From Capnocytophaga bilenii (GTDB taxonomy: Bacteria > Bacteroidota > Bacteroidia > Flavobacteriales > Flavobacteriaceae), in NCBI RefSeq assembly GCF_017565765.1, contig NZ_JAGDYP010000005.1, positions 124,001 to 188,000 on the forward strand: DNA of 64,000 nucleotides, in the 5' to 3' direction. Position numbers and translations under genes: made by a program. Shown here piece after piece: positions 29,870-41,347 of the stretch (positions are counted from its first letter, which is position 1; each line of letters opens with the position of its first letter). Below the pieces are notes generated by a model. The model had not been told where the DNA came from. It saw only the letters and a list, made by a program, of their open reading frames with translations, and ran no database searches.

Positions 29870-31572
29870 ATGAATCAGTTTATAGTATCAGCTCGCAAAT
29901 ACCGTCCACAATCTTTCCGCGATGTCGTGGGGCAGCAAGCTATTACCAATACCCTACAGAATGCCATTGAGAATAACCATTTGGCACAAGCATTGCTTTT
30001 TACGGGACCTCGTGGTGTTGGAAAGACTACTTGTGCTCGTATTTTAGCTAAAAAAATAAACGAACAAACATCAGGCGAAACTAATGATGACGACTTTGCC
30101 TTCAACGTATTCGAGCTGGATGCGGCTTCAAATAATAGTGTAGATGATATTCGTAATCTTATAGACCAAGTACGTATTCCACCACAAGTGGGCAAATATA
30201 AAGTATATATTATAGATGAGGTACATATGCTTTCCAATCAGGCATTTAATGCCTTTTTGAAGACATTAGAAGAGCCTCCAAAGCACGCTATCTTTATCTT
30301 GGCTACTACCGAAAAGCATAAAATTATCCCCACTATATTGTCGCGTTGTCAAATATTCGACTTCAAGCGTATCACACTAAATGACACTCGTGAATACTTA
30401 AAATATATAGCTGAACAACAAGGTATTACTGCTGAAGATGAGGCTTTACAAATCATCGCTCAAAAAGCCGATGGAGCTATGCGTGATGCACTCTCTATTT
30501 TTGATCGTGTAGTGAGCTTTTCAGGAAATCATATCAGTAGACAGGCTACTTCAGAAATTCTGAATGTACTTGATTATGAAACTTATTTCAAAGTAACCGA
30601 CCTTATCATAAACAACAAACTGCCAGAGTTACTTCTATCTTTTAATGATATTATTGCACAAGGATTTGATGGAAATCACTTTATAGCAGGATTGGCGAGC
30701 CATTTTAGAGATTTAATGGTATGTAAAAACCCTGCAACTATTCAGCTAATGGAGGTAGGTGAAGAAACACAAAAAAAATATAGCGAACAAAGTGCTCGTG
30801 CTACAGTACCTTTCCTAATGGAGGCTATCAATATTGCCAATGATACCGACTTGAAGTATCGTACCAGCAAAAACCAGCGTTTGTTAGTAGAAATCGCTCT
30901 AATGCAGCTCGCTTCTTTAACCTTTGAAGGTGATAAAAAAAAAATGATGGACGCTTCATAATTCCCGCTTATATATACAATGGGCAAACACCACCAACTC
31001 CTGTTACAAAAGAACAAGTACAAGTTACTGCCCAGCAGGCTACTACACCACAATTTACTACCACCAATGCTGTAGCACCCAATATACCTACTATTAGCAA
31101 AGCACAGCGTTCTAATGTAGTATCAGGTTTATCTATTAAAAGTGTATTTTTAAAGAGTGAACACCAGAAAAATACACAAGAAGTGGTAATAGACCCCAAT
31201 TCACTACCACGTGAACCATTTAGCGAAGAAAGTTTTTATAAACATTGGGAGGCTTACCAGCAAGATTTACTGAATAAGGGCGAACGTATACAAGCTTCAA
31301 TTCTGAAAATAGCTCAATTACACCTCGAAGGAACGGTTATAAAATTAGAAGTATCTACAGAAGCTGCTAAAAATGAGATTTTAACGATGGAAACACATTT
31401 ATTAGGGTACCTTCATAGATTGTTAAGAAATTACGATTTGCGATTAGAAATAGATGTAAATGAAGAATTAGCAAAAAAAATACTGATAACCCCAGAGGAA
31501 AAATATAGTAAATTATTAGAGGAAAATCCTAATTTACAATTATTTAGGAATGTTTTTTCACTAAGCATATGA
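29870..31572 (+). CDS. dnaX: DNA polymerase III subunits gamma/tau, split by a -1 frameshift
   Basis: The gene occupies two frames. Frame 1 (29870-30961, 363 residues) has the clamp-loader core: Walker A GPRGVGKTTCARI near residue 45, YIIDEVHML, and the SRC motif (TILSRCQIFDF). It stops at TAA 30959-30961 soon after a run of ten A residues (30935-30944). Frame 2, one base back, is open through the run and continues KNDGRFIIPAYIYNGQ to the stop at 31570-31572, giving a full tau of about 567 residues. The IIPA stretch and the C-terminal domain suit flavobacterial tau. Either slippage makes both gamma-like and tau forms, as in Thermus, or the run has a mutation or base-call error. The usual four-cysteine zinc module after the P-loop is absent. 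Confidence 0.88.
30935..30944 (+). promoter_or_regulatory. Putative slippage site in dnaX (A10 run)
   Basis: Ten consecutive A residues precede TGATGG. Reading zero frame gives KKKMMDAS and stop; a -1 shift, or one A added by the RNA polymerase, joins the tau C-terminal frame without a stop between. No clear stimulatory hairpin was found after it, which favours transcriptional slippage over ribosomal frameshifting. Confidence 0.55.
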
Positions 31573-31680: not shown

Positions 31681-32673
31681 ATGGCAACTAATAAAAATGC
31701 ACAATTACGGTATAATATATTAGATGAGTGTTTTAGCAATCCTTATAAGAAGTTTTTTATAGAGGATTTGATAGCAATTTGTTCTGAAAAGCTTTCTGAA
31801 CACTATGGCGAAGAAGTAACAGTATCACGCCGCACTATATTAGGTGATATTGCTTTTATGGAAAGTGCCGATGGTTTTGAGGCTCCTATTGAACGAATTA
31901 AGGAGGGAAAAAGAGTTTTTTTTCGTTATGAAGAGGCCGATTTTTCTATATTGAAAAAGGAACTCTCTTCTTCAGATAAAGAAATACTCAATGAGGTGGT
32001 CTCACTCTTTGCACGTTTAAAAAATATAAAAAACTTTGAGTGGGTAGAAAATCTAAAAACTAAAATACAAACCCTTATAGACGTTGATTTTAAGGAGCAA
32101 ATTATAGACTTTCAGGATAATAATTTTTTGGCAGGATTAGAACATCTTAATTCTCTATATCATTATATAGTTAACCAACAGGGGTTGAGTGTTACCTACA
32201 AACCTTTTACGGAAGATATTAAAAAAGCAACTATTTCTCCTTATTATCTAAAGCAATACAATAATCGTTGGTTTTTGTTTGGGTATAACCATGAAGCTGA
32301 TAGACTTGAAAATCTTGCATTGGATAGGATAGTGACTATAGAACCTAAAAACATAACTTATAAAGAAAGTAAAATTAATTTTGAAGAATATTTTGATGAT
32401 ATTATAGGAGTTACTAACTTTGCCGACAAAGAGGTAGAGGAAATAGTGTTGGAACTAAGTAACAATATTATTCCTTATATAGCCACTAAGCCCTTGCATA
32501 GTTCGCAAAAACTAAAAGGTAACATACTAAAAATAAAGGTAAAAATTAATTATGAATTAGAGAGTTTGATACTTTCATATGCTGAAAACATAAAAGTAAT
32601 AAGCCCTCTATCACTAAAAAATAGTATAAAAGAGAGGTTGCAGAAGTCTGTAAACCAGTATGATACAAAATAA
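31681..32673 (+). CDS. WYL-domain transcriptional regulator
   Basis: 330 residues. The N-terminal part (about 1-75) is a winged helix-turn-helix with FIEDLIAICSEKL and VSRRTILGDIAFM. The middle (about 155-240) is a WYL domain: GLSVTYKPF, ISPYYLKQYNNRWFLFGYN, and LALDRIVTIEP. WYL regulators sense nucleic-acid or nucleotide ligands and often control phage-defence loci. It is the first gene of the accessory island, 108 nt after dnaX, and reads toward the retron RNA. It probably controls the palindromic site at 32694. Base composition is AT-richer than dnaX. Confidence 0.85.
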   Translation: MATNKNAQLRYNILDECFSNPYKKFFIEDLIAICSEKLSEHYGEEVTVSRRTILGDIAFMESADGFEAPIERIKEGKRVFFRYEEADFSILKKELSSSDKEILNEVVSLFARLKNIKNFEWVENLKTKIQTLIDVDFKEQIIDFQDNNFLAGLEHLNSLYHYIVNQQGLSVTYKPFTEDIKKATISPYYLKQYNNRWFLFGYNHEADRLENLALDRIVTIEPKNITYKESKINFEEYFDDIIGVTNFADKEVEEIVLELSNNIIPYIATKPLHSSQKLKGNILKIKVKINYELESLILSYAENIKVISPLSLKNSIKERLQKSVNQYDTK

Positions 32674-32693
32674 ATAGAAAAATAATCACATTA

Positions 32694-32731
32694 GTGCAAA
32701 TAGGTTGCACACGTTGGTTATACTTTTGCAC
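32694..32731 (+). promoter_or_regulatory. Operator-like palindrome and repeated half-site before the retron RNA
   Basis: GTGCAA (32694-32699) and TTGCAC (32705-32710) form an inverted repeat with a 5-nt spacer. A third half-site TTGCAC (32726-32731) lies 21 bp after the second, two helical turns, and overlaps the -7 element. The placement suits binding by the adjacent WYL regulator; this is an inference. Confidence 0.5.
32721..32728 (+). promoter_or_regulatory. -7 element of the retron transcript
   Basis: TACTTTTG matches TAnnTTTG exactly. The -33 position (about 32698-32701) lacks TTG, so transcription may need an activator or may be weak. The expected start near 32735 is just before the a1 repeat of the retron RNA. 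Confidence 0.55.
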
Positions 32732-32752
32732 CGTCAAAACAAAAGTTCTTTG

Positions 32753-32993
32753 AAAAACACCTGCAAGTATTGACTTTTAGGATTGCTGGATAGACCGTTT
32801 ATTTTCGCGAGTAAACGGAATATCAGATCGGCAATTGGCTCAGATTTTTTCTGAGTATATGGTTACTTTGGATGATCAATTGATGATATAATTATTTATT
32901 TTATATCATTTTTTTCATATTAATCACCTTTTTAAAACCTTCACTAATTTTTATTATTGCATAAACAAAGAGAATAACAAGTCAGGTGTTTTT
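32753..32993 (+). ncRNA. Putative retron non-coding RNA (msr-msd)
   Basis: A perfect 11-bp inverted repeat bounds the region: a1 AAAAACACCTG (32753-32763) and a2 CAGGTGTTTTT (32983-32993), the layout of retron RNAs. Inside, the msr-like part has a three-tier stem (ATTGC 32782-32786/GCAAT 32831-32835; GATA 32789-32792/TATC 32821-32824; CCGTTTA 32795-32801/TAAACGG 32812-32818) and a second hairpin CTCAGA/TCTGAG (32839-32855, T5 loop). The msd-like part is a long interrupted hairpin at 32861-32939 with arms GGTT/AACC, GG/CC, TGAT/ATCA, AAT/ATT, and a 9-bp tip stem ATGATATAA/TTATATCAT. It lies 29 nt before the RT gene. Exact msDNA ends and the branching G are not fixed. Confidence 0.78.
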
Positions 32994-33022
32994 TTTGAGA
33001 ACTTATCTAATTATCTAAAAAG

Positions 33023-34324
33023 ATGACTACTTTTACTAACGAAGAATTAAAGGACATAGCAGAAAAAGGAGATGAACTTATCATAGAGAAATTTGCATCA
33101 TTAAACAGCTATAAGGATATATTAGAAATGTTCAATATTGCACAAGTAATTCTTTATGGTGAGAAAGCTACTCTTTTCAAATTAGAAGACCTTATCTTCT
33201 ATGCAAGCCTTAATTTTTCTGAAAAGGATAGGTACTTTACCTTTACTATCAAGAAGAAGTCAGGCGGAGAGCGTATTATCAATGCTCCTTGTGAGGAACT
33301 AAAGGGTTTATTGCAGTGTTTTAACTATATATTGCAAGTACTCTTTACACCCCACATTAAGGCTATGGGGTTTGTACGCGAGCGCTCGGTAGTTAGCAAT
33401 GCACAACTGCATACTAACAAAAACTATGTATACAATATTGATTTGAAAGATTTCTTTCACTCATTTGGTCGCCAATGGGTGAAATGGGTATTAATGCAGG
33501 AGCCTTTCAACCTATCAGGAGAGCGTGAGCCACTGGCTTTTTGGTTAGCATCTTTATGTACACATTCTCTCGAAATAGAAGGTAGTACAAAAATAGTGTT
33601 GCCGCAAGGGGCTCCCACCTCACCTACCCTTACCAATATACTTTGCTATCCGTTAGACAAAAAACTCAATGGTTTGGCAAAGCGTTTTGGGGCTACTTAC
33701 TCTCGGTATGCTGACGATATTACTTTTTCATCAAACAAGAGTATCTTTAAGAACGAAGTATTCTTAAAGGAATTGGAGCGCATTGTAAAAAGTCAGAAAC
33801 TGACTATCAATGAGAAGAAGACTCGTTTGCAAAAAAAAGAGTATCGACAAGAGGTAACAGGACTTATTGTAAACGAAAAAGTAAATACCTATCGACACTA
33901 TGTAAAACAATTGCGTATGTGGTTGTACTATATTGAAAAATATGGTATGGAGAAAGCAGAAGCTTTTTTTAGAAGAGACTATATCAAAGAAAAAGGGCAT
34001 ATAAAATGGAAGGAAAACCCAATGAAGAATGTGCTACAAGGTAAACTTCTTTATCTAAAAATGGTAAAAGGAGCAGAAGATGCTACTTATCTGAATTTGG
34101 TACAGCGTTTTGACCGTGCTTTTGGTTTTGATGTAGAAGCCATACTAAAAATATGGGAAGAAAAGGGAATAGCAGCAGCTGAAGGTTTGTATTATAATAG
34201 TAAACCCAACAGACTTATAAAATATAAAAAAGCAGACTTTCACTATATACTTTCGGAAGAAGAAATAGCTGAACTGCGTACAAACTACCCTGAGCTTTTT
34301 ATGGAAGAAGGATTTTTACAATAA
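33023..34324 (+). CDS. retron-type reverse transcriptase
   Basis: 433 residues. RT motifs in order: GGERIINAPCEELK (near 91), the retron NAxxH motif in SNAQLHTNKNYV (near 124-135), YNIDLKDFFHSFG (catalytic aspartate), LPQGAPTSPTLTNIL, YSRYADDITFSS (YADD catalytic pair near 231-234), and VTGLIVNEKVN (the VTG motif that retron RTs use for their RNA). The C-terminal 130 residues are helical and basic. It should copy part of the upstream RNA into a branched cDNA. It heads a run of five same-strand genes ending at dnaE. No group II intron maturase domain is seen. Confidence 0.93.
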   Translation: MTTFTNEELKDIAEKGDELIIEKFASLNSYKDILEMFNIAQVILYGEKATLFKLEDLIFYASLNFSEKDRYFTFTIKKKSGGERIINAPCEELKGLLQCFNYILQVLFTPHIKAMGFVRERSVVSNAQLHTNKNYVYNIDLKDFFHSFGRQWVKWVLMQEPFNLSGEREPLAFWLASLCTHSLEIEGSTKIVLPQGAPTSPTLTNILCYPLDKKLNGLAKRFGATYSRYADDITFSSNKSIFKNEVFLKELERIVKSQKLTINEKKTRLQKKEYRQEVTGLIVNEKVNTYRHYVKQLRMWLYYIEKYGMEKAEAFFRRDYIKEKGHIKWKENPMKNVLQGKLLYLKMVKGAEDATYLNLVQRFDRAFGFDVEAILKIWEEKGIAAAEGLYYNSKPNRLIKYKKADFHYILSEEEIAELRTNYPELFMEEGFLQ

Positions 34325-34363
34325 AGTCATTCTTTTTTAAATATTTTGTGTAAAAACTTGATT

Positions 34364-35695
34364 ATGACAGGAAATAAGTATAACTTTGCTCACAAATTAT
34401 TAAGTAGTAGCAGGGTAACCCCCGAACAAAAAAAGAGGATATTAGAACTCATTGCTCAAGAACGCAATGAGGATATAGTGCTGCTTGAGAATAGAATAGG
34501 GAACTTGGAGAAAAAGAAAGCAGCTGCTATTGTTGAGGAGATTAAAATTGCAGGAAAGAAGGAAGAAAAAGTAGAAGTTGAAAATGCTTTACCTAAAAAT
34601 TATATAAATCCTTTTGGAGGAAAAAGTTTATCTAAATTTTTGTTAGCCTACAATCAGGACCCTTTGCTTAAATACACTTGTCATGAAGTTAGTAATAGTT
34701 TCACTATTGATGATAAAGATTATAATTTTATAGATTATATAAAAGAAATAGCAAAAACAGATGTCTATACTGTTAGAGTGCATCAACAATTATTACAAAA
34801 AAGATTTGAAGAATTACTTTATGAGGTAGATAAGAGTGGGAACAAAAGGACAAATGAAAAAAAGAAAAAATACTTTATTAGTAATAATATAGAAACACTT
34901 ATTTTAGTATATCTTACAGGTAAAAATTCTGAAGGGGAAAAAAAAGAATGGAGTTCCGATAATATAGAGATGAACTGGGCAAATAAGGAATTATTAGATT
35001 GGTCTGATAAAAATCTTAATTGTATTCCCCATCCCAATAACACTTTAAAAGAGAAGCAAAAGGTTTTTTTTAAACTAAAAAAACCTTTTACATCAAAGTT
35101 AAATGGTAAAAATATACGAGATTTTTCTGATTTGGTAATTCATTTTAAAAATTTATTTCATATTCGTTCAGGTAATTCTTTAAAAGACCTTTTAGAATAT
35201 AGAAATAAAACTAAATGGGGAAAAAATATTGATTTTATCTTTAGTAATTTTAGAACAGACATAGAACTTTTTACAGATGTAGATAAGTTATTACAAATAT
35301 ATGATAAAATATTACATATTAGTACAGAAGAACTAATAAAAACAGATGGATATGCCTTAAAAGAAAATGAAAAACATAAAATTATCTTATCTTTTTATGA
35401 AGATAGGGAACAAGTTTATTTTGTGATTCATCATATCCATCCTCATTACCCTTTTTATGGGAAAAGTTCTAATAACGCCATTGAAAGAATAGGGGTTTCT
35501 CAAACAAATCTTATTAACAAGATTAATGGGATAGCTAATTTATATATACAGGCAGATTTTAATGAAGAGAATAAGAGTTATGAAATTAATTTGTGGGATG
35601 GAGAATGGAAAGATCAAAAATATGTTCCTAAAGAACGTGAAAAAAAAGAAGTTGCCCAAATAAATGGGGTTAAATATATATTAAGATTAAAATGA
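34364..35695 (+). CDS. unknown protein of the retron operon, possibly a degenerate sensor kinase
   Basis: 443 residues from the ATG at 34364, 39 nt after the RT stop; a TTG at 34346 is an in-frame alternative. The N-terminus (about 1-75) is a charged coiled-coil-like region. The middle has HFKNLFHIRSGNSLKDLL near residue 260. The last 140 residues (VDKLLQIYDKIL, IILSFYEDREQVYFVIHH, then IERIGVSQTNL and YEINLW) have the order of elements of a GHKL/HATPase domain but lack its N-box asparagine and glycine motifs. I propose a decayed kinase because the next gene has a receiver domain; this is weak. The DNA is strikingly AT-rich. It overlaps the next start (ATGA). Confidence 0.6.
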   Translation: MTGNKYNFAHKLLSSSRVTPEQKKRILELIAQERNEDIVLLENRIGNLEKKKAAAIVEEIKIAGKKEEKVEVENALPKNYINPFGGKSLSKFLLAYNQDPLLKYTCHEVSNSFTIDDKDYNFIDYIKEIAKTDVYTVRVHQQLLQKRFEELLYEVDKSGNKRTNEKKKKYFISNNIETLILVYLTGKNSEGEKKEWSSDNIEMNWANKELLDWSDKNLNCIPHPNNTLKEKQKVFFKLKKPFTSKLNGKNIRDFSDLVIHFKNLFHIRSGNSLKDLLEYRNKTKWGKNIDFIFSNFRTDIELFTDVDKLLQIYDKILHISTEELIKTDGYALKENEKHKIILSFYEDREQVYFVIHHIHPHYPFYGKSSNNAIERIGVSQTNLINKINGIANLYIQADFNEENKSYEINLWDGEWKDQKYVPKEREKKEVAQINGVKYILRLK

Positions 35696-37773
35696 TGATA
35701 TATCTTATAGATGAACAAATAAATAGACAAATAGAATATGGTTGGACAAAGGAACGTTTTGTCCAATATAATACTATTGTAAAAACTATCCATAAAAAAG
35801 AAGAGTTTTCAGAAGATATTTTAAATAAAGGGGATATCATTTTTTTACACGAGTCTTTTCCTGATGAAAATATTAAGAATCAAATTTATGATTATTGGCG
35901 TGAAGAAAAAAAAATTTCAATAGGAGTGTTTAGTGGGAGTAAAAATGAGCGAAAAAGGAGAGAAGGTAGAATTGATTTACCAGTAAGTGTTTTTTATAGT
36001 AATTTAGCTATTTTTTTATTGAAAATAAAAGGAGGTACATTAAATATCAATTATCTTTTGTACGGAGAGTCTCCAGAACTTGAAAAGGCTTTATATGATG
36101 AATTAAATATAAGAAATAGGAATAATACTGGTGATAGCATAAAATCTAATTGTCAGAATTTAATATTTTTCACAAGTGAAGATTATATTAATAATCCTTT
36201 TGATAATCCTTTTGAAATAACTTTGTACGGACAGGAGGGTAGTTTTTCAGATGAACGTTTGCATAATATTCTTACAAAAGAATTAAACGGAAAAAGATGT
36301 GATAATGTCTTTATTCCTTTGTGTTTTGGAAACTCATTGTCAGATTATAATGGCTTACGATTGGCTAGTCATATACGTTGTACTGAAACGCCTATTCAAT
36401 TAAGTAATATTTATATCTATGGTTTTGTTGGCTATGAGAAGTTATTAGCACATCCTTGTTTTAATATTCTGAAAACTAAAAATGTAAAACTTATAGACTA
36501 TTCAGTAGAGGCTATCCAAAAAATTGATAAAGATGAACTACTATCTTCATTAGAAAAAAGTGATTTACCTAACGAGATAAAAAAGTTAGCACTTGTTTCT
36601 CCGAAAGACAACCATAGTATTACTAATGAGTGGGCAGTCTATCGATGGGCTACAACTATTAATACTAATGACGATGATATAGAAATAATAGCTAAAAATA
36701 TAGAAAATAGTTTGTATTTCAAGTATCTTAAAACTATTTATCCTATTACTAAGAGTAAAGAATTATCGTCTATCAAAATAGAAAAAAATAATAAGAACCC
36801 TAAAATATTATATATTGATGATGAAGCAGAAAAAGGATGGAATGAAATTTTTGCTACCATACTTTATGACAATAATGAGTTGAATTATATCTCGTTAGAC
36901 ATAGACTATAAAACTTTATCAAAGAACGAAATAATTAGCTCATCTATACAGAAAATAAAAGAAGATAATACGGATATTGTGATTCTTGATTTTCGCCTGC
37001 ATAGTAGTGATTTCTCTAAAAATGTTCCTATTCAAGAAGTTACAAGCGTACAAATATTAAAAGCTATTAAGGAGTATAATGCAGGTATACAAGTGATAAT
37101 CTTTTCAGCTACCAACAAGATTTGGAACTTACAAACCTTAGAAAGTTCAGGTGCAGACGGTTTTATCATTAAAGAAGCTCCTGAAAATAGTGTTGACCCT
37201 AATTTTACACAAGATACTATAAATAACTTTCAGAAAGTAATGGAGAAAAGTATACGTATGACTTTTCTTAAAGAAGCTTATAGTATTATGAACGAAATTA
37301 AAATATATTTGGAGAAAAAAGGATCCAATAAAAAAGAAAATGAATTAAAAAATGAAATTATACTTCAGTTAGAGACTGCTTTTGAGTGTTTGAAAAAGAC
37401 AGAAAGTAATAACTATTTTAAGCTATCATATATTTCTTTATTTAAAATTATTGAACTCATAACTATCTTTTATGTAGAAGGAAGATTCTTAAAAAAAGGA
37501 AAAAATATTACTCCTATTGAATGGTATAATGAGAAAAAAGAATGTTTTGAAGAGTATAAAGATGATAAAGATATTTCTACAAAGTCTAAGATAATCTATA
37601 TATATAACCATTTAGGAGGAGATGTAAAAAATATATTTTCAGAGATAAGTACTATTTGCGAAAAAAGGAATAATATAATTCACCCTGAATCTATAAGAAA
37701 ACAAAATATTGTAGAAGAACAAGAAAATATAATGTTATTAAATACTATATATACTATCATCAAAGTAATTTAA
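35692..37773 (+). CDS. receiver-domain protein with C-terminal HEPN-like domain
   Basis: 693 residues, new to me as an architecture. Residues 372-500 are a complete phospho-receiver: D376/D377 in YIDDE, phospho-acceptor D433 in VILDFRLH, S472 in IIFSATN, K494 in FIIKEAP. Residues 1-100 look like a decayed copy (MIYLIDEQ and GW, as in YIDDEAEKGW), and about 200-275 a second receiver-like segment without active-site residues. The last 150 residues are helical and end in CEKRNNIIHPES: R659 and H664 form the RNxxxH motif of HEPN ribonucleases, after a FKIIELITIFYV helix usual for that fold. I infer a phosphorylation-gated RNase. It overlaps the preceding gene and lies 3 nt before the helicase gene. 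Confidence 0.72.
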   Translation: MMIYLIDEQINRQIEYGWTKERFVQYNTIVKTIHKKEEFSEDILNKGDIIFLHESFPDENIKNQIYDYWREEKKISIGVFSGSKNERKRREGRIDLPVSVFYSNLAIFLLKIKGGTLNINYLLYGESPELEKALYDELNIRNRNNTGDSIKSNCQNLIFFTSEDYINNPFDNPFEITLYGQEGSFSDERLHNILTKELNGKRCDNVFIPLCFGNSLSDYNGLRLASHIRCTETPIQLSNIYIYGFVGYEKLLAHPCFNILKTKNVKLIDYSVEAIQKIDKDELLSSLEKSDLPNEIKKLALVSPKDNHSITNEWAVYRWATTINTNDDDIEIIAKNIENSLYFKYLKTIYPITKSKELSSIKIEKNNKNPKILYIDDEAEKGWNEIFATILYDNNELNYISLDIDYKTLSKNEIISSSIQKIKEDNTDIVILDFRLHSSDFSKNVPIQEVTSVQILKAIKEYNAGIQVIIFSATNKIWNLQTLESSGADGFIIKEAPENSVDPNFTQDTINNFQKVMEKSIRMTFLKEAYSIMNEIKIYLEKKGSNKKENELKNEIILQLETAFECLKKTESNNYFKLSYISLFKIIELITIFYVEGRFLKKGKNITPIEWYNEKKECFEEYKDDKDISTKSKIIYIYNHLGGDVKNIFSEISTICEKRNNIIHPESIRKQNIVEEQENIMLLNTIYTIIKVI

Positions 37774-37776
37774 ACT

Positions 37777-39855
37777 ATGCCTACCATTTTTGACCATTTT
37801 CAGAACCTTACTCTTACCAATGACCAGCATAATGCATTGGAAAAGATAACTGAGTTTCTCAACTCGGATGCTAAAATATTTATCCTAAAAGGATATGCGG
37901 GTAGTGGTAAAACTACCTTACTAAAAGGATTAGTAAGATACCTAAACGAAGAAAAAAAAAGGTGCCAAGTAATGGCACCAACAGGTCGTGCGGCTAAGAT
38001 TTTAAGGAAGAAAGTGGGACAAGGGGCAACGATTCATAAAAGTATTTATGCTCTTGAAGATATAATTTTAGGAGAAGATAATTGTTATTTTTTAGCTCCT
38101 CTTAGATCTTTGATGGGAGAAGAAGGATATATCTTTATTATAGATGAAGCATCTATGGTTTCTAATATGGAAAATAAAAATGAAAATCTTAAGTTTGGTA
38201 CAGATATACTTTTAGAAGATTTGATTACTTATACTCGTGTGAGAGAGGCTAATAATAAAGTTATTTTTGTAGGCGACCCTGCTCAATTACCCCCTGTAGG
38301 AGAAGCTATTTCTCAGGCTTTAAATCCTACTTTCTTTGAAAATATGGGCTTAAAACCTATACAAGCTGAAATGACTAAAGTAGTACGACAAGATAATAAT
38401 CTTATTCTTGAAAATGCTACAAAAATTCGTGCTCTTTTAGCACAAGAAAAGCGAACAGAACTGAGGTTTGACTATGACCATACTTTTGTTAAATTAGGGA
38501 TTGAAGAAATAGCAGATAAATATGTAAATATGTATCCTATACCTCACTTATCTCAAAGTGTAATCATAGCGCAATCTAATACACAATGCTTACATTACAA
38601 CCAAAATATACGTTCTAAAATTTTCCCTAATAGCCCCAATGTAGTGCCTGGTGATATATTACTTATTAACCAAAATAACTACAATAAACAAGTGGAATTG
38701 TTTAATGGAGATATGGTAAAGGTACTTGAAGTTGAAGATAAATTAACAGTACGTAGTAATATTCCTGTTTTTGAAGAGGGAATAAAAAAAACTATAACTC
38801 TTGCATTTAGAAAAGTAAAAGTGATTCCTGAAGAAAGTGATATTATTATAGAGTGTTATATTATTGATACCTTACTAAATTCTAAAGAAAGAGCTTTAAC
38901 ACCTATAGAATTAAAAGCACTTTATATTGATTTTAAAATACGTTTCACGGAAAAATATAGAAATCTGTATAAAGTTGGCTCTCGAGAATTTAAAGAACTT
39001 CTCAAAACAGACCCTTTTTTCAATGCTTTACGTGTAAAGTATGGTTATGCTATCACTTGTCATAAAGCTCAAGGAGGCGAGTGGGATACAGTCTTTGTAG
39101 ATTACTCTGGACGCGTTGGGCTTAACAATGATGCCTTACGTTGGAGCTATACTGCGACTACTCGTGCAGTAAATAAATGTTATGCAGCGAATGCACCTCA
39201 TATCACTTGTTTTTCTTCTTTTCAGATAGGACAAATAGGGGCTGTTGCTAAAATGCCTAAGGAAACGATTAGTATAGAAAATATTCCTTTATCCCCTTTT
39301 CATACTGAGGGGCAACATCGGGCTAAAAGTTTAAAATATTGGGAAATTGTAGCTAATTTGGAAACCACTCCTTATAAGGTAGAAAGAGTAGAAAGTAAAG
39401 GTGATTATCAAGAACGTTACATAATTAGTAATGGAGGGGAAATAGATGCTTTCGATGTTTTTCATACGGGAGCAGGAGTTTTTAAAGATTTTAAACCTTT
39501 ACACTGCAATGCTACAGCTTGGCAAGTTGAGGTATTAATATTGCTCAATAAACCTAATACTGATATTACTTTTGATATAGATTACGCACCTTCTACTCCT
39601 CTGTTTGAGAAACTTTACAGACTAATGCAGTCGGCTTGTGAAGATGCTGAGGTTACTATTACCAATATAGAAGAAAGATCTAAAGACTATTATGTGCTTT
39701 ATTATTTGAAAACTGATAATGGTAAAGGCGCATACATACAGTTTTATTTCAACAACAAAGAACAACTCACAAGAGCTATACCTAAATCAATGAATGGTGT
39801 AAATGACCAAAAATTACAACTATTAATCCAAAAACTAAAAGAATATGTCCTTTAA
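37777..39855 (+). CDS. superfamily 1 DNA helicase, RecD/Pif1-like
   Basis: 692 residues. Motif I GYAGSGKTT (39-47), VMAPTGRAAKIL (Ia), IFIIDEASMVS (II), FVGDPAQLPPVG (III), VVRQDN, and YGYAITCHKAQGGEWDTVFV (V/UvrD_C_2-like) with YTATTRA (VI) are all intact. This suits an ATP-dependent 5'-3' helicase of the RecD2/Dda type. The last 180 residues are not a known helicase part and may bind a partner. It lies 3 nt after the receiver gene, and its 3' end overlaps the next gene by 11 nt. It may act on msDNA, phage DNA or stalled forks. Confidence 0.85.
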   Translation: MPTIFDHFQNLTLTNDQHNALEKITEFLNSDAKIFILKGYAGSGKTTLLKGLVRYLNEEKKRCQVMAPTGRAAKILRKKVGQGATIHKSIYALEDIILGEDNCYFLAPLRSLMGEEGYIFIIDEASMVSNMENKNENLKFGTDILLEDLITYTRVREANNKVIFVGDPAQLPPVGEAISQALNPTFFENMGLKPIQAEMTKVVRQDNNLILENATKIRALLAQEKRTELRFDYDHTFVKLGIEEIADKYVNMYPIPHLSQSVIIAQSNTQCLHYNQNIRSKIFPNSPNVVPGDILLINQNNYNKQVELFNGDMVKVLEVEDKLTVRSNIPVFEEGIKKTITLAFRKVKVIPEESDIIIECYIIDTLLNSKERALTPIELKALYIDFKIRFTEKYRNLYKVGSREFKELLKTDPFFNALRVKYGYAITCHKAQGGEWDTVFVDYSGRVGLNNDALRWSYTATTRAVNKCYAANAPHITCFSSFQIGQIGAVAKMPKETISIENIPLSPFHTEGQHRAKSLKYWEIVANLETTPYKVERVESKGDYQERYIISNGGEIDAFDVFHTGAGVFKDFKPLHCNATAWQVEVLILLNKPNTDITFDIDYAPSTPLFEKLYRLMQSACEDAEVTITNIEERSKDYYVLYYLKTDNGKGAYIQFYFNNKEQLTRAIPKSMNGVNDQKLQLLIQKLKEYVL

Positions 39856-41347
39856 CCAAGTAAAAGAACTTCGTAAGCAAGGAAAACTAGATGAAGCTTT
39901 TCAAATGGCTTTGACTGAACACAACGAAGCTCCTCTTGATATTTATAGAAAGAGAGCTTTGGGATGGGTGTATTATGAGTATGCTAAAAAAGCTGCTGAA
40001 GAAAACAATTTAAACGCTTTTTTAACCAATGTACAAAATCTCAAAAACATACAGTTTCCTCCGGAAGAAGTAATGATTTTTGACAATTTACTTTGGCAGT
40101 ATGTCAAAATGTTTTCAGCTCTTCGTAAACAAGGAAATATAAATTATCAACAAGCTAATTTATTATTTGATAGCCTAAAAGGTATCTATTTCACTCTTCC
40201 ATCAGAGGCTTTTTCTGCTTTGATAGAGCAATTACATAAAACCTATAAAAATTCATATCAATACATAGAAGCAATTAAAAATTGCTTAAATTTCTTACGC
40301 CCTGAGGACTTTGAACCTAAAGAGTATAATGGTAGACAGATTATGCCTTTAGCAGAACAAGTATATACTGTATACAGTAGGAAAGTTCTACAAGGAGATC
40401 CTATACCCAATGAATTTGGAATTATAAGTTATAAACTTAACAAAGAACATATCAGTAAATTTTTACCTATCTTAGCACAATGGATAGAGACACACGCTAA
40501 TTACACTTTTCTACCATACTTCAAAACTAAAATGGAGTTAGAGCTACTTTCAGATAAAGAAGAAACCTTTAATACATTCTTGCCTTTTGCAAAAAAGAAA
40601 CAAAATGATTTTTGGGTATGGCAACTGATGAGTGAAATAATGACTAATAAAGAAGTATCATTTGCTTGCTTGTGTAAGGCTTTAAGTTTGGGAGGTAAAG
40701 AAGAATTTTTAGGAAAACTTCGTGTAAGTTTTACTAAAGAACTTATCAATAGGGAGTTATTCAATGAAGCGCGTACTGAAATAGAGATAGTTCTAAAAGA
40801 AAAACAAGAAAATAATAAAAAAGTACCTTACGAGATACAACAATGGCAACAAGAACATTGGTATGCACAAGCAAAGCCTTTAAAAAACAACTTTATCTTA
40901 TATAACCAACACAAAGGACAGTCTGAGGCTTTGTTATACCAAGATATATCTGAAGATATTGTAGTTATAACAAGTGTGAATGATGAGAAGAAAATTGCAA
41001 ATTTTATAAAAGATACTTTTAAAAATGGTTCCTTTAAATATGACAGAATCCTTAAATCACCTAAGAAAGGAGATGTGTTAAAAGTAAGATTAGAAATTTT
41101 TGATGAGGCTAAAAAAGCGTATAAACTCTTGTCTGCTCAAAAAGGGAATGAAGCTGATTGTGAAGCTATAAAAGCTGTTGAAGGACAGCTTAGGATTATT
41201 CCATCAGGGGCTGGTTTTGTAGGAGGTGTTTTTGTTTCTAAAAACCTCATCGAAAAAAATCAATGGAAAAACAATCAAATAATAAAAGCTAAAGCCATTC
41301 TTTCGTTTGATAAGAATAAAGACAAATGGGGATGGGCTGTAATTTAG
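39845..41347 (+). CDS. TPR-like protein with C-terminal OB-like domain, unknown function
   Basis: 500 residues. The N-terminus (FNQVKELRKQGKLDEAFQMA, then YRKRALGWVYYEYAKKA) is TPR-like, and helical repeats continue to about residue 330. The C-terminal 55 residues (IIPSGAGFVGGVFVSKNLI, then AILSFDKNKDKWGWAVI) resemble a small cold-shock or OB domain that could bind RNA or single-stranded DNA. It overlaps the helicase gene by 11 nt, so the two products likely work together. Its stop is only 6 nt before the dnaE start. I do not recognise a named function. Confidence 0.65.
   Translation: MSFNQVKELRKQGKLDEAFQMALTEHNEAPLDIYRKRALGWVYYEYAKKAAEENNLNAFLTNVQNLKNIQFPPEEVMIFDNLLWQYVKMFSALRKQGNINYQQANLLFDSLKGIYFTLPSEAFSALIEQLHKTYKNSYQYIEAIKNCLNFLRPEDFEPKEYNGRQIMPLAEQVYTVYSRKVLQGDPIPNEFGIISYKLNKEHISKFLPILAQWIETHANYTFLPYFKTKMELELLSDKEETFNTFLPFAKKKQNDFWVWQLMSEIMTNKEVSFACLCKALSLGGKEEFLGKLRVSFTKELINRELFNEARTEIEIVLKEKQENNKKVPYEIQQWQQEHWYAQAKPLKNNFILYNQHKGQSEALLYQDISEDIVVITSVNDEKKIANFIKDTFKNGSFKYDRILKSPKKGDVLKVRLEIFDEAKKAYKLLSAQKGNEADCEAIKAVEGQLRIIPSGAGFVGGVFVSKNLIEKNQWKNNQIIKAKAILSFDKNKDKWGWAVI

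Follow-up and report, generated by a model that had tools for sequence, protein, structure and literature searches.

Histidine-kinase-like and receiver-like partners of a predicted retron in Capnocytophaga bilenii, from a family with exchangeable, HEPN-like modules

What would a retron reverse transcriptase (RT) be doing beside the parts of a two-component system? The question is raised by positions 31681-41347 of a 64,000-nucleotide stretch of Capnocytophaga bilenii DNA (the window; contig NZ_JAGDYP010000005.1, positions 124,001 to 188,000). There, the list of open reading frames (ORFs) and their translations give six genes on the + strand, which encode a WYL-domain protein, an RT, a histidine-kinase-like protein (HK), a protein with receiver and HEPN-like parts (REC-HEPN), a helicase (HEL) and a TPR/S1 protein. 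This gene set, its order and its single direction had been named correctly in a preliminary description made from the letters of the window. Our reading, which we hold to be reasonably probable, is that the locus belongs to a mostly Bacteroidota retron family with a probable HEPN-type RNase as its killing part, and that this RNase would be restrained through a pseudokinase-receiver lock set by the complex of RT and multicopy single-stranded DNA (msDNA). The features of the locus are as follows.

31681..32673, + strand: WYL-domain regulator (Pfam WYL, 46.7 bits; WCX, 27.9 bits)
32745..33000, + strand: predicted retron msr-msd noncoding RNA, the putative msDNA template (folding energy, 24-row covariation)
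32753..32763, + strand: a1 arm of the retron inverted repeat, AAAAACACCTG (inverted-repeat search)
32781..32856, + strand: two msr stem-loops, at about 32781-32836 and 32838-32856, which are the conserved helices 3 and 4 (folding, covariation)
32983..32993, + strand: a2 arm, CAGGTGTTTTT, with the RT start codon 29 nt downstream (inverted-repeat search)
33023..34324, + strand: retron RT of 433 amino acids with NAxxH, YADD and VTG (RVT_1, 77 bits; PADLOC, up to 329 bits)
34364..35695, + strand: HK, a histidine-kinase-like pseudokinase of 443 amino acids, with an alternative TTG start at 34346 (HisKin-conflict PF22561, 165 bits)
35692..37773, + strand: REC-HEPN, 693 amino acids (iREC PF22563, 82 bits; Response_reg below cut-off)
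37777..39855, + strand: HEL, a RecD/Pif1-like superfamily 1 helicase with a C-terminal TBP-TOTE domain (PDC-M16A, 752.7 bits; TBP-TOTE, 93; AAA_30, 93; UvrD_C_2)
39845..41347, + strand: TPR/S1 protein with DUF7017 and S1CSD-TOTE-1/2 (PDC-M16B, 526.7 bits; DUF7017, 130 bits)

The last four genes, from HK to TPR/S1, overlap one another or are separated by 3-nt gaps, which was the spacing claimed for them. The locus is also richer in AT than its surroundings, as had been judged by eye: between 31 and 41 kb, each 1-kb bin had a G+C of 26-36%, compared with 34-37% just upstream and 39-44% just downstream. PADLOC models recognised the RT, WYL, helicase and TPR/S1 proteins; the HK and REC-HEPN proteins matched no PADLOC model at E 1.

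We asked whether the RT is of the retron type. The motifs NAxxH, YADD and VTG, on which this assignment had been based, were all found in the 433-residue protein, and RVT_1 was its sole Pfam domain above cut-off. A profile of five RTs of the group was compared with the Protein Data Bank (PDB) and scored 185 bits with Ec67, 135 with Ec86, 117 with Ec78 and 115 with Kva2, whereas the score was at most 52 for group II RTs and 34 for DRT2; the Eco8 retron RT scored 56. The top 12 sequences (109-185 bits) comprised ten named as retron and two named merely as RNA-directed DNA polymerase. A non-retron RT was ruled out by these scores. With the PADLOC models, the RT scored 329 bits for RT-Protease_XI versus 145 bits for RT_IX. 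In an RT tree with references, from which L015 and L065 were left out, the 82 family rows were compatible with one clade (approximately unbiased [AU] test, 0.64; higher likelihood when held together), but several reference branches were very long, so that this is no proof. These results place the protein among the retron RTs at the level of sequence. A phage-borne origin was not supported: no relative was confirmed in one pattern-based scan of viral contigs that used the REC alignment, and among phage records the RT had its best match, at 40% identity, on a contig of a faecal phage.

The RNA upstream of the RT was analysed in the same way. A structured RNA with 11-bp inverted repeats had been proposed there, and both the repeat and the structure recur in relatives. 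The 11-nt a1/a2 pair encloses 241 nt, arms included. We examined 80 loci with a full 500 nt upstream of the RT (the window, L011, L012, L013, L015 and 75 of L021-L100; L013 and L025 represent the same contig). At the matching position, 40 of them have a perfect repeat no shorter than 11 nt, as against 1.65 expected from dinucleotide shuffles, and 49 have one no shorter than 10 nt, as against 4.75. A chance inverted repeat was thereby ruled out. The minimum free energy of the RNA at 32745-33000 was -63.2 kcal/mol (z -4.5). Of the 57 loci whose perfect repeat measures 9 nt or longer, 24 were aligned; compensatory changes on both sides were seen in 18 of 24 consensus pairs, and the covariation score was 0.474, compared with 0.219 after shuffling and 0.08-0.17 when the partners were slid. 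Both-side changes were equally divided between the a1/a2 helices 1 and 2 (9 of 12 pairs) and the msr stem-loop helices 3 and 4 (9 of 12 pairs), the latter being no part of the selection criterion. Rfam held no family for this RNA and gave merely sub-threshold matches to unrelated families. We conclude that the RNA, as predicted from its covariation, is the msr-msd of the retron.

Which genes accompany this RT elsewhere? Genome contigs were searched with a profile of the RT alignment, and the best 80 loci were taken; more exist, and near-copies are included. The modules after the RT were tallied in the 77 loci with at least 900 nt beyond it. An HK/REC module was found in 42 loci, in 11 of which HK is fused to the RT. 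A single small protein with an RN...H motif, which we labelled HEPN1, followed the RT in 33. No locus had both modules, and two (L064, L083) had neither. HK is present in all 42 HK/REC loci: 41 were found by script, and that of L073, just past the position limit, was seen on inspection. L081 was assigned to HEPN1 manually, because the start of its ORF lies more than 60 nt before the end of the RT gene. At least 12 module swaps can be counted on the RT tree. The gap from the RT to the next same-strand ORF was 60 nt or less in 81 of the 82 loci having one. In Pontibacter arcticus (L079, 11184-14632), an 869-residue TmtA-like HATPase protein stands between the RT and the HEPN1 gene.

The complete order of the window, WYL-RT-HK-REC-HEL-TPR, recurs in Capnocytophaga canis (L014/L095) and on two Chryseobacterium plasmids (L011, L012), where the receiver protein is split into two genes; the same gene order is also found in many other Bacteroidota. 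L015 encodes RT and HisKin-conflict as a single protein of 671 residues. Thus the association of RT, kinase-like and receiver/HEPN proteins proposed earlier is supported, on gene order and fusion, as a conserved unit. What did not hold was a conserved order of all four genes after the RT, since loci differ in their middle module and do not always have the helicase pair. Of 73 related loci in which at least 1.5 kb precedes the RT, 54 have a WYL gene no more than 2.6 kb before it, divergent in 35 and of the same strand in 19; WYL is probably the regulator of the operon. In an even sample of the phylum, the RT family was found at E 1e-70 in 7 of 395 genomes. HK or HK/REC genes accompany it in two of these, one being the window genome, and HEPN1 in another two; two more have longer RTs (532 and 580 residues) and neither module, and the last is cut by a contig end. 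The two Chryseobacterium plasmids also carry a methyltransferase, a restriction specificity subunit, a helix-turn-helix protein, a PIN-domain protein and a DEAD/DEAH helicase upstream of the RT, and this region has the look of a plasmid defence island.

HK had been described as possibly kinase-like, with a phosphorelay-like step. The likeness to a kinase stood, whereas the residues that bind ATP are not kept. In a structure model, the C-terminus of HK has the histidine-kinase catalytic-domain (ATP-domain) fold, and the receiver of the partner protein is intact. The HK alignment comprised the window and 30 of 31 relatives (the 695-residue protein of L029 was left out). In these 31 rows, the G1-box Asp position, 357, is occupied by H in 21, Q in 8 and D in 2, so that Asp is replaced in 29. 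The N-box Asn, placed by eye on the alignment and the structure model, is not conserved either: N is not among the eight commonest residues at 315, and it occurs in 4 rows at 318 and in 2 at 319. On the other hand, H107, in an LK-x-[TC]-H-like context, is invariant (31/31). The protein is thus a kinase fold without the ATP-binding residues, and a classical phosphorelay is therefore unlikely. When HK was aligned to an active kinase with hhalign, no match resulted. A tblastn search of plasmid records with HK also gave none, although Pfam finds the HK of the Chryseobacterium plasmids. In Maribacter ulvicola (L029, 11143-13227), the HK gene encodes 695 residues, about 300 more than its relatives, and likely includes an extra domain.

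The REC-HEPN protein is built of the following parts.

about residues 1-143: N-terminal receiver-like part (by model)
residues 183-268: iREC (Pfam)
residues 368-526: receiver with acidic pair, phospho-Asp (D433), T/S and Lys
to residue 693: helical C-terminus with R659 and H664 (model and motif)

In the REC alignment (the window and 39 of 44 relatives), the phosphorylation residues of the receiver, namely the acidic pair, phospho-Asp, T/S and Lys, are kept in all 40 rows, and so are R659 and H664 of the RNxxxH motif, which has the Rx4-6H spacing. The short HEPN1 proteins, 27 of 35 of which were aligned, have the R/H pair in 27/27. The claimed receiver protein with a terminal RNxxxH motif is therefore real, HEPN being a call made on the motif. 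We infer that the module carried after the RT by 75 of the 77 loci has the effector role. A scan of genome contigs with the single REC protein as query confirmed no relative. Separately, a receiver/HEPN-motif protein (iREC and Response_reg; RNTVAH) was seen in L016 (8829-11422) after a 243-residue protein and an unknown 1181-residue protein, and the 18.7-kb stretch has no RT; this is a possible non-retron use of a REC-HEPN-type effector.

How might these parts work together? The abstract of PMC12548924 describes retrons as keeping a toxic effector within the complex of RT and msDNA, and according to a preprint (PMC13405049), the type IX retron Kva2 keeps a HEPN tRNase locked in this complex. 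Because of this precedent, the RT-HK fusions and the mutual exclusivity of the modules, we propose the following model. The RT would make msDNA, and the RT-msDNA complex would hold HK, which would serve as a pseudokinase docking platform and not as an enzyme. The intact receiver of REC-HEPN would dock on HK, keeping the HEPN part inactive. A phage product that disturbs msDNA, or a change of receiver phosphorylation via another phosphate source, would be the trigger, upon which the receiver would be released or dimerise anew. The HEPN pair would then cleave RNA, perhaps tRNA as type IX retrons do, and bring growth to a halt. The short HEPN1 version may reach the same outcome through direct contact, and the HEL and TPR/S1 pair may act on phage nucleic acid. 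On the wider generalisation we are evenly divided: it would be a modular retron family, usually with a WYL gene and with an msr-msd that covaries, whose msDNA complex governs a HEPN RNase, in some members directly and in others via a captured, catalytically dead HK/receiver pair, with modules exchanged at least 12 times and the TOTE helicase/TPR pair recruited repeatedly.

Several observations weigh against the lock model, and some of them favour other readings of the effector module. The 80 RT loci contain near-copies and are thus not all independent, the 24 RNAs used for covariation were selected by their perfect a1/a2 repeat (9 nt or longer), which favours helices 1 and 2, and a REC-HEPN-like gene is also found without an RT (L016). 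If HK is dead, the conserved receiver residues require some phosphate donor, and we can name none. A rival reading is a true phosphorelay, in which HK is active and divergent and H107, phosphorylated when RT-msDNA senses phage, passes the phosphate to D433 of REC-HEPN. The invariant H107, the catalytic-domain fold and the fully kept receiver residues fit such a relay, but the substitution of the G1 Asp and the missing N-box Asn speak against it, and we regard it as unlikely. The HEPN call itself is also exposed. A Pfam HEPN model matched weakly (1 of 40 REC rows, E 0.002), another single REC row matched RE_Eco47II at 0.0002, the 27 short HEPN1 proteins gave no HEPN model match at E 0.01, and a subgroup of them has Rx3H (RNQNHR), not Rx4H. 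Profile comparison of the two HEPN-like families gave a probability of 2.4% (E 0.019), and although the C-terminus of REC-HEPN is helical in the model, the fold search was filled by receiver matches and did not reach the HEPN part. Non-catalytic HEPN partners are known, and the C-terminus might accordingly be an antitoxin or adaptor, with HK or the helicase as effector. The weak HEPN matches agree with this, but R659 and H664 are invariant and the alternative module also has an RN...H motif; we consider a non-catalytic C-terminus rather improbable.

The other rivals concern which genes form one system. The helicase and TPR genes had been counted as part of the unit; they are present and adjoin it, but the pair proved optional and separately mobile. 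Among loci with at least 4.5 kb downstream, 17 of the 37 with HK/REC and 14 of the 30 with HEPN1 have HEL and TPR after the effector (31/67 overall), and the complete pair is missing in 20 and 16, respectively (36/67). It could therefore be an independent defence system, the PADLOC candidate PDC-M16, which merely adjoins a retron consisting of WYL, RNA, RT, HK and REC alone. PADLOC lists the pair by itself, and helicase-TPR pairs occur without an RT in the stretches retrieved for L132, L135 and L136 (for L134, with a contig end about 1 kb upstream, and L137, with masked bases upstream, the presence of an RT cannot be judged). Moreover, the helicases linked to an RT do not form a single clade (AU p 2e-46; 35 rows versus 12, of which two are helicases that lie close to an RT without sharing the operon order). 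The spacing argues the other way: 32 of 38 loci have at most 90 nt between effector and helicase, 27 of 34 show an overlap of HEL with TPR, and the pair sits at the same place after both effector types, so that recruitment recurred. We give full independence a real but lesser chance, and read the pair, from its placement, as a repeatedly recruited, optional partner of the retron that is probably co-transcribed with its operon. A shorter relative of the helicase (about 480 residues) is common in this bacterial family and also occurs elsewhere in the window genome (C15). The last rival, that unrelated defence genes accumulated by chance in an AT-rich island, would agree with the low G+C, with the sporadic presence of the RT family in the phylum and with the other defence genes beside the Chryseobacterium plasmid copies. 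For RT, HK and REC-HEPN we regard it as already refuted by the RT-HK fusions, by the order kept across bacterial families and by the presence, in 75 of 77 loci, of one or the other of two modules that exclude each other; for the locus as a whole it is very improbable.

The surroundings of the locus were also compared. In the window genome (2.73 Mb), dnaX and dnaE flank it, and an insertion between these two genes had been suggested. A search of 19 other Capnocytophaga genomes revealed no dnaX within 1.5 kb of the start region of dnaE; when the two genes share a contig, 46 kb to 2.4 Mb separate them, as judged from contig positions. The idea that the locus entered a pre-existing dnaX-dnaE pair was therefore rejected. 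In C. canis, the cassette lies on a contig that has neither gene, so that its location varies from species to species. It should be mentioned that, at 30935-31572 of the window, dnaX stops at 363 residues shortly past a run of ten A, with a tau-tail of 211 residues open in another frame. The A10 run and an alternate frame of 197-215 residues were present in 13 of 13 parsed Capnocytophaga dnaX loci, the window included (7 of 20 were not parsed). Programmed slippage is known for dnaX elsewhere, and the A10 run looks like an instance of it. In two other Capnocytophaga genomes (L152 of G002 and L154 of G007), a distant WYL-domain gene, 25-27% identical to that of the window, lies directly upstream of dnaE.

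Similar arrangements were seen in cyanobacteria. A Geminocystis plasmid (L182, 4935-8975) and Picosynechococcus pAQ5 (L185, 4944-9018) encode an RT, a protein with an RNxxSH motif and an ATPase joined, by eye, to a WYL-like domain; the RNxxSH protein matched the HEPN1 profile at 54.9 bits in L182 and gave no profile match in L185. The cyanobacterial RT-HEPN-like-WYL sets, these two included, were rejected as family members, their RTs grouping with fused RTs of other kinds. On Nostoc HK-01 plasmid4 (L186, 4905-9268), a retron-like RT appears by eye to be fused to an AAA+ (McrB-like) domain and is followed by a 696-residue partner; this is possibly another unlisted RT-effector type.

To our knowledge, few retrons have been studied experimentally in Bacteroidota, and the family adds retron RNAs and RTs from this phylum. 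It is a probable defence system, as predicted from its genes, of Bacteroidota from the rumen, other gut samples, fish and the environment. One RT family appears to use either a direct HEPN-like effector or a two-component-like intermediate; its natural module swaps would show which part senses and which part kills, and the HK/REC version is a test case of a receiver domain wired to an RNase without an active kinase. If our reading is true, this is a retron gated by two-component parts.

With regard to known systems, the locus is, by its predicted parts, a retron that fits neither type IX nor types XI, XII and I-C. According to PMC13405049, type IX (retron-Kva2: RT, msDNA, HEPN and winged helix) has in common with it a HEPN RNase effector, here predicted, and a further partner protein. 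The RT, however, scores 145 bits with the RT_IX model and up to 329 bits with the models of types XI, XII and I-C, which sets it apart from type IX, and the gene directly 5' of the RNA encodes WYL and not the winged helix of Kva2. The motif of the locus is the canonical RNxxxH, whereas that preprint finds none in type IX. In the present family, moreover, the effector gene is 3' of the RT, as a small protein or as the HK and REC-HEPN module. Types XI (RT-protease), XII (RT-TIR) and I-C (RT-Toprim) are the nearest RT relatives by PADLOC score, but their models are single-gene RT-effector fusions; the RT of the locus has no such fusion, separate HEPN-like genes follow it, and HK fusions occur in some loci. 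The helicase and its partner, adjacent and overlapping genes, match the PDC-M16/TOTE helicase-S1 proteins at 753 and 527 bits, with TBP-TOTE and S1CSD-TOTE domains; here they trail a retron operon, and elsewhere they also occur without an RT. No description of a retron with HisKin, receiver and HEPN parts was found by title or abstract start among the matches listed, although an earlier description is possible, and the passages retrieved from PMC7159879, PMC12548924 and PMC8934634 do not mention one. HK and REC-HEPN are members of the Pfam families HisKin-conflict (PF22561) and iREC (PF22563), here tied to a retron RT and msr-msd. Parts like these were reportedly described by Burroughs and Aravind in 2020. 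HisKin-conflict, iREC, TOTE and PDC-M16 are thus already named families, and what is apparently new is their link to a retron.

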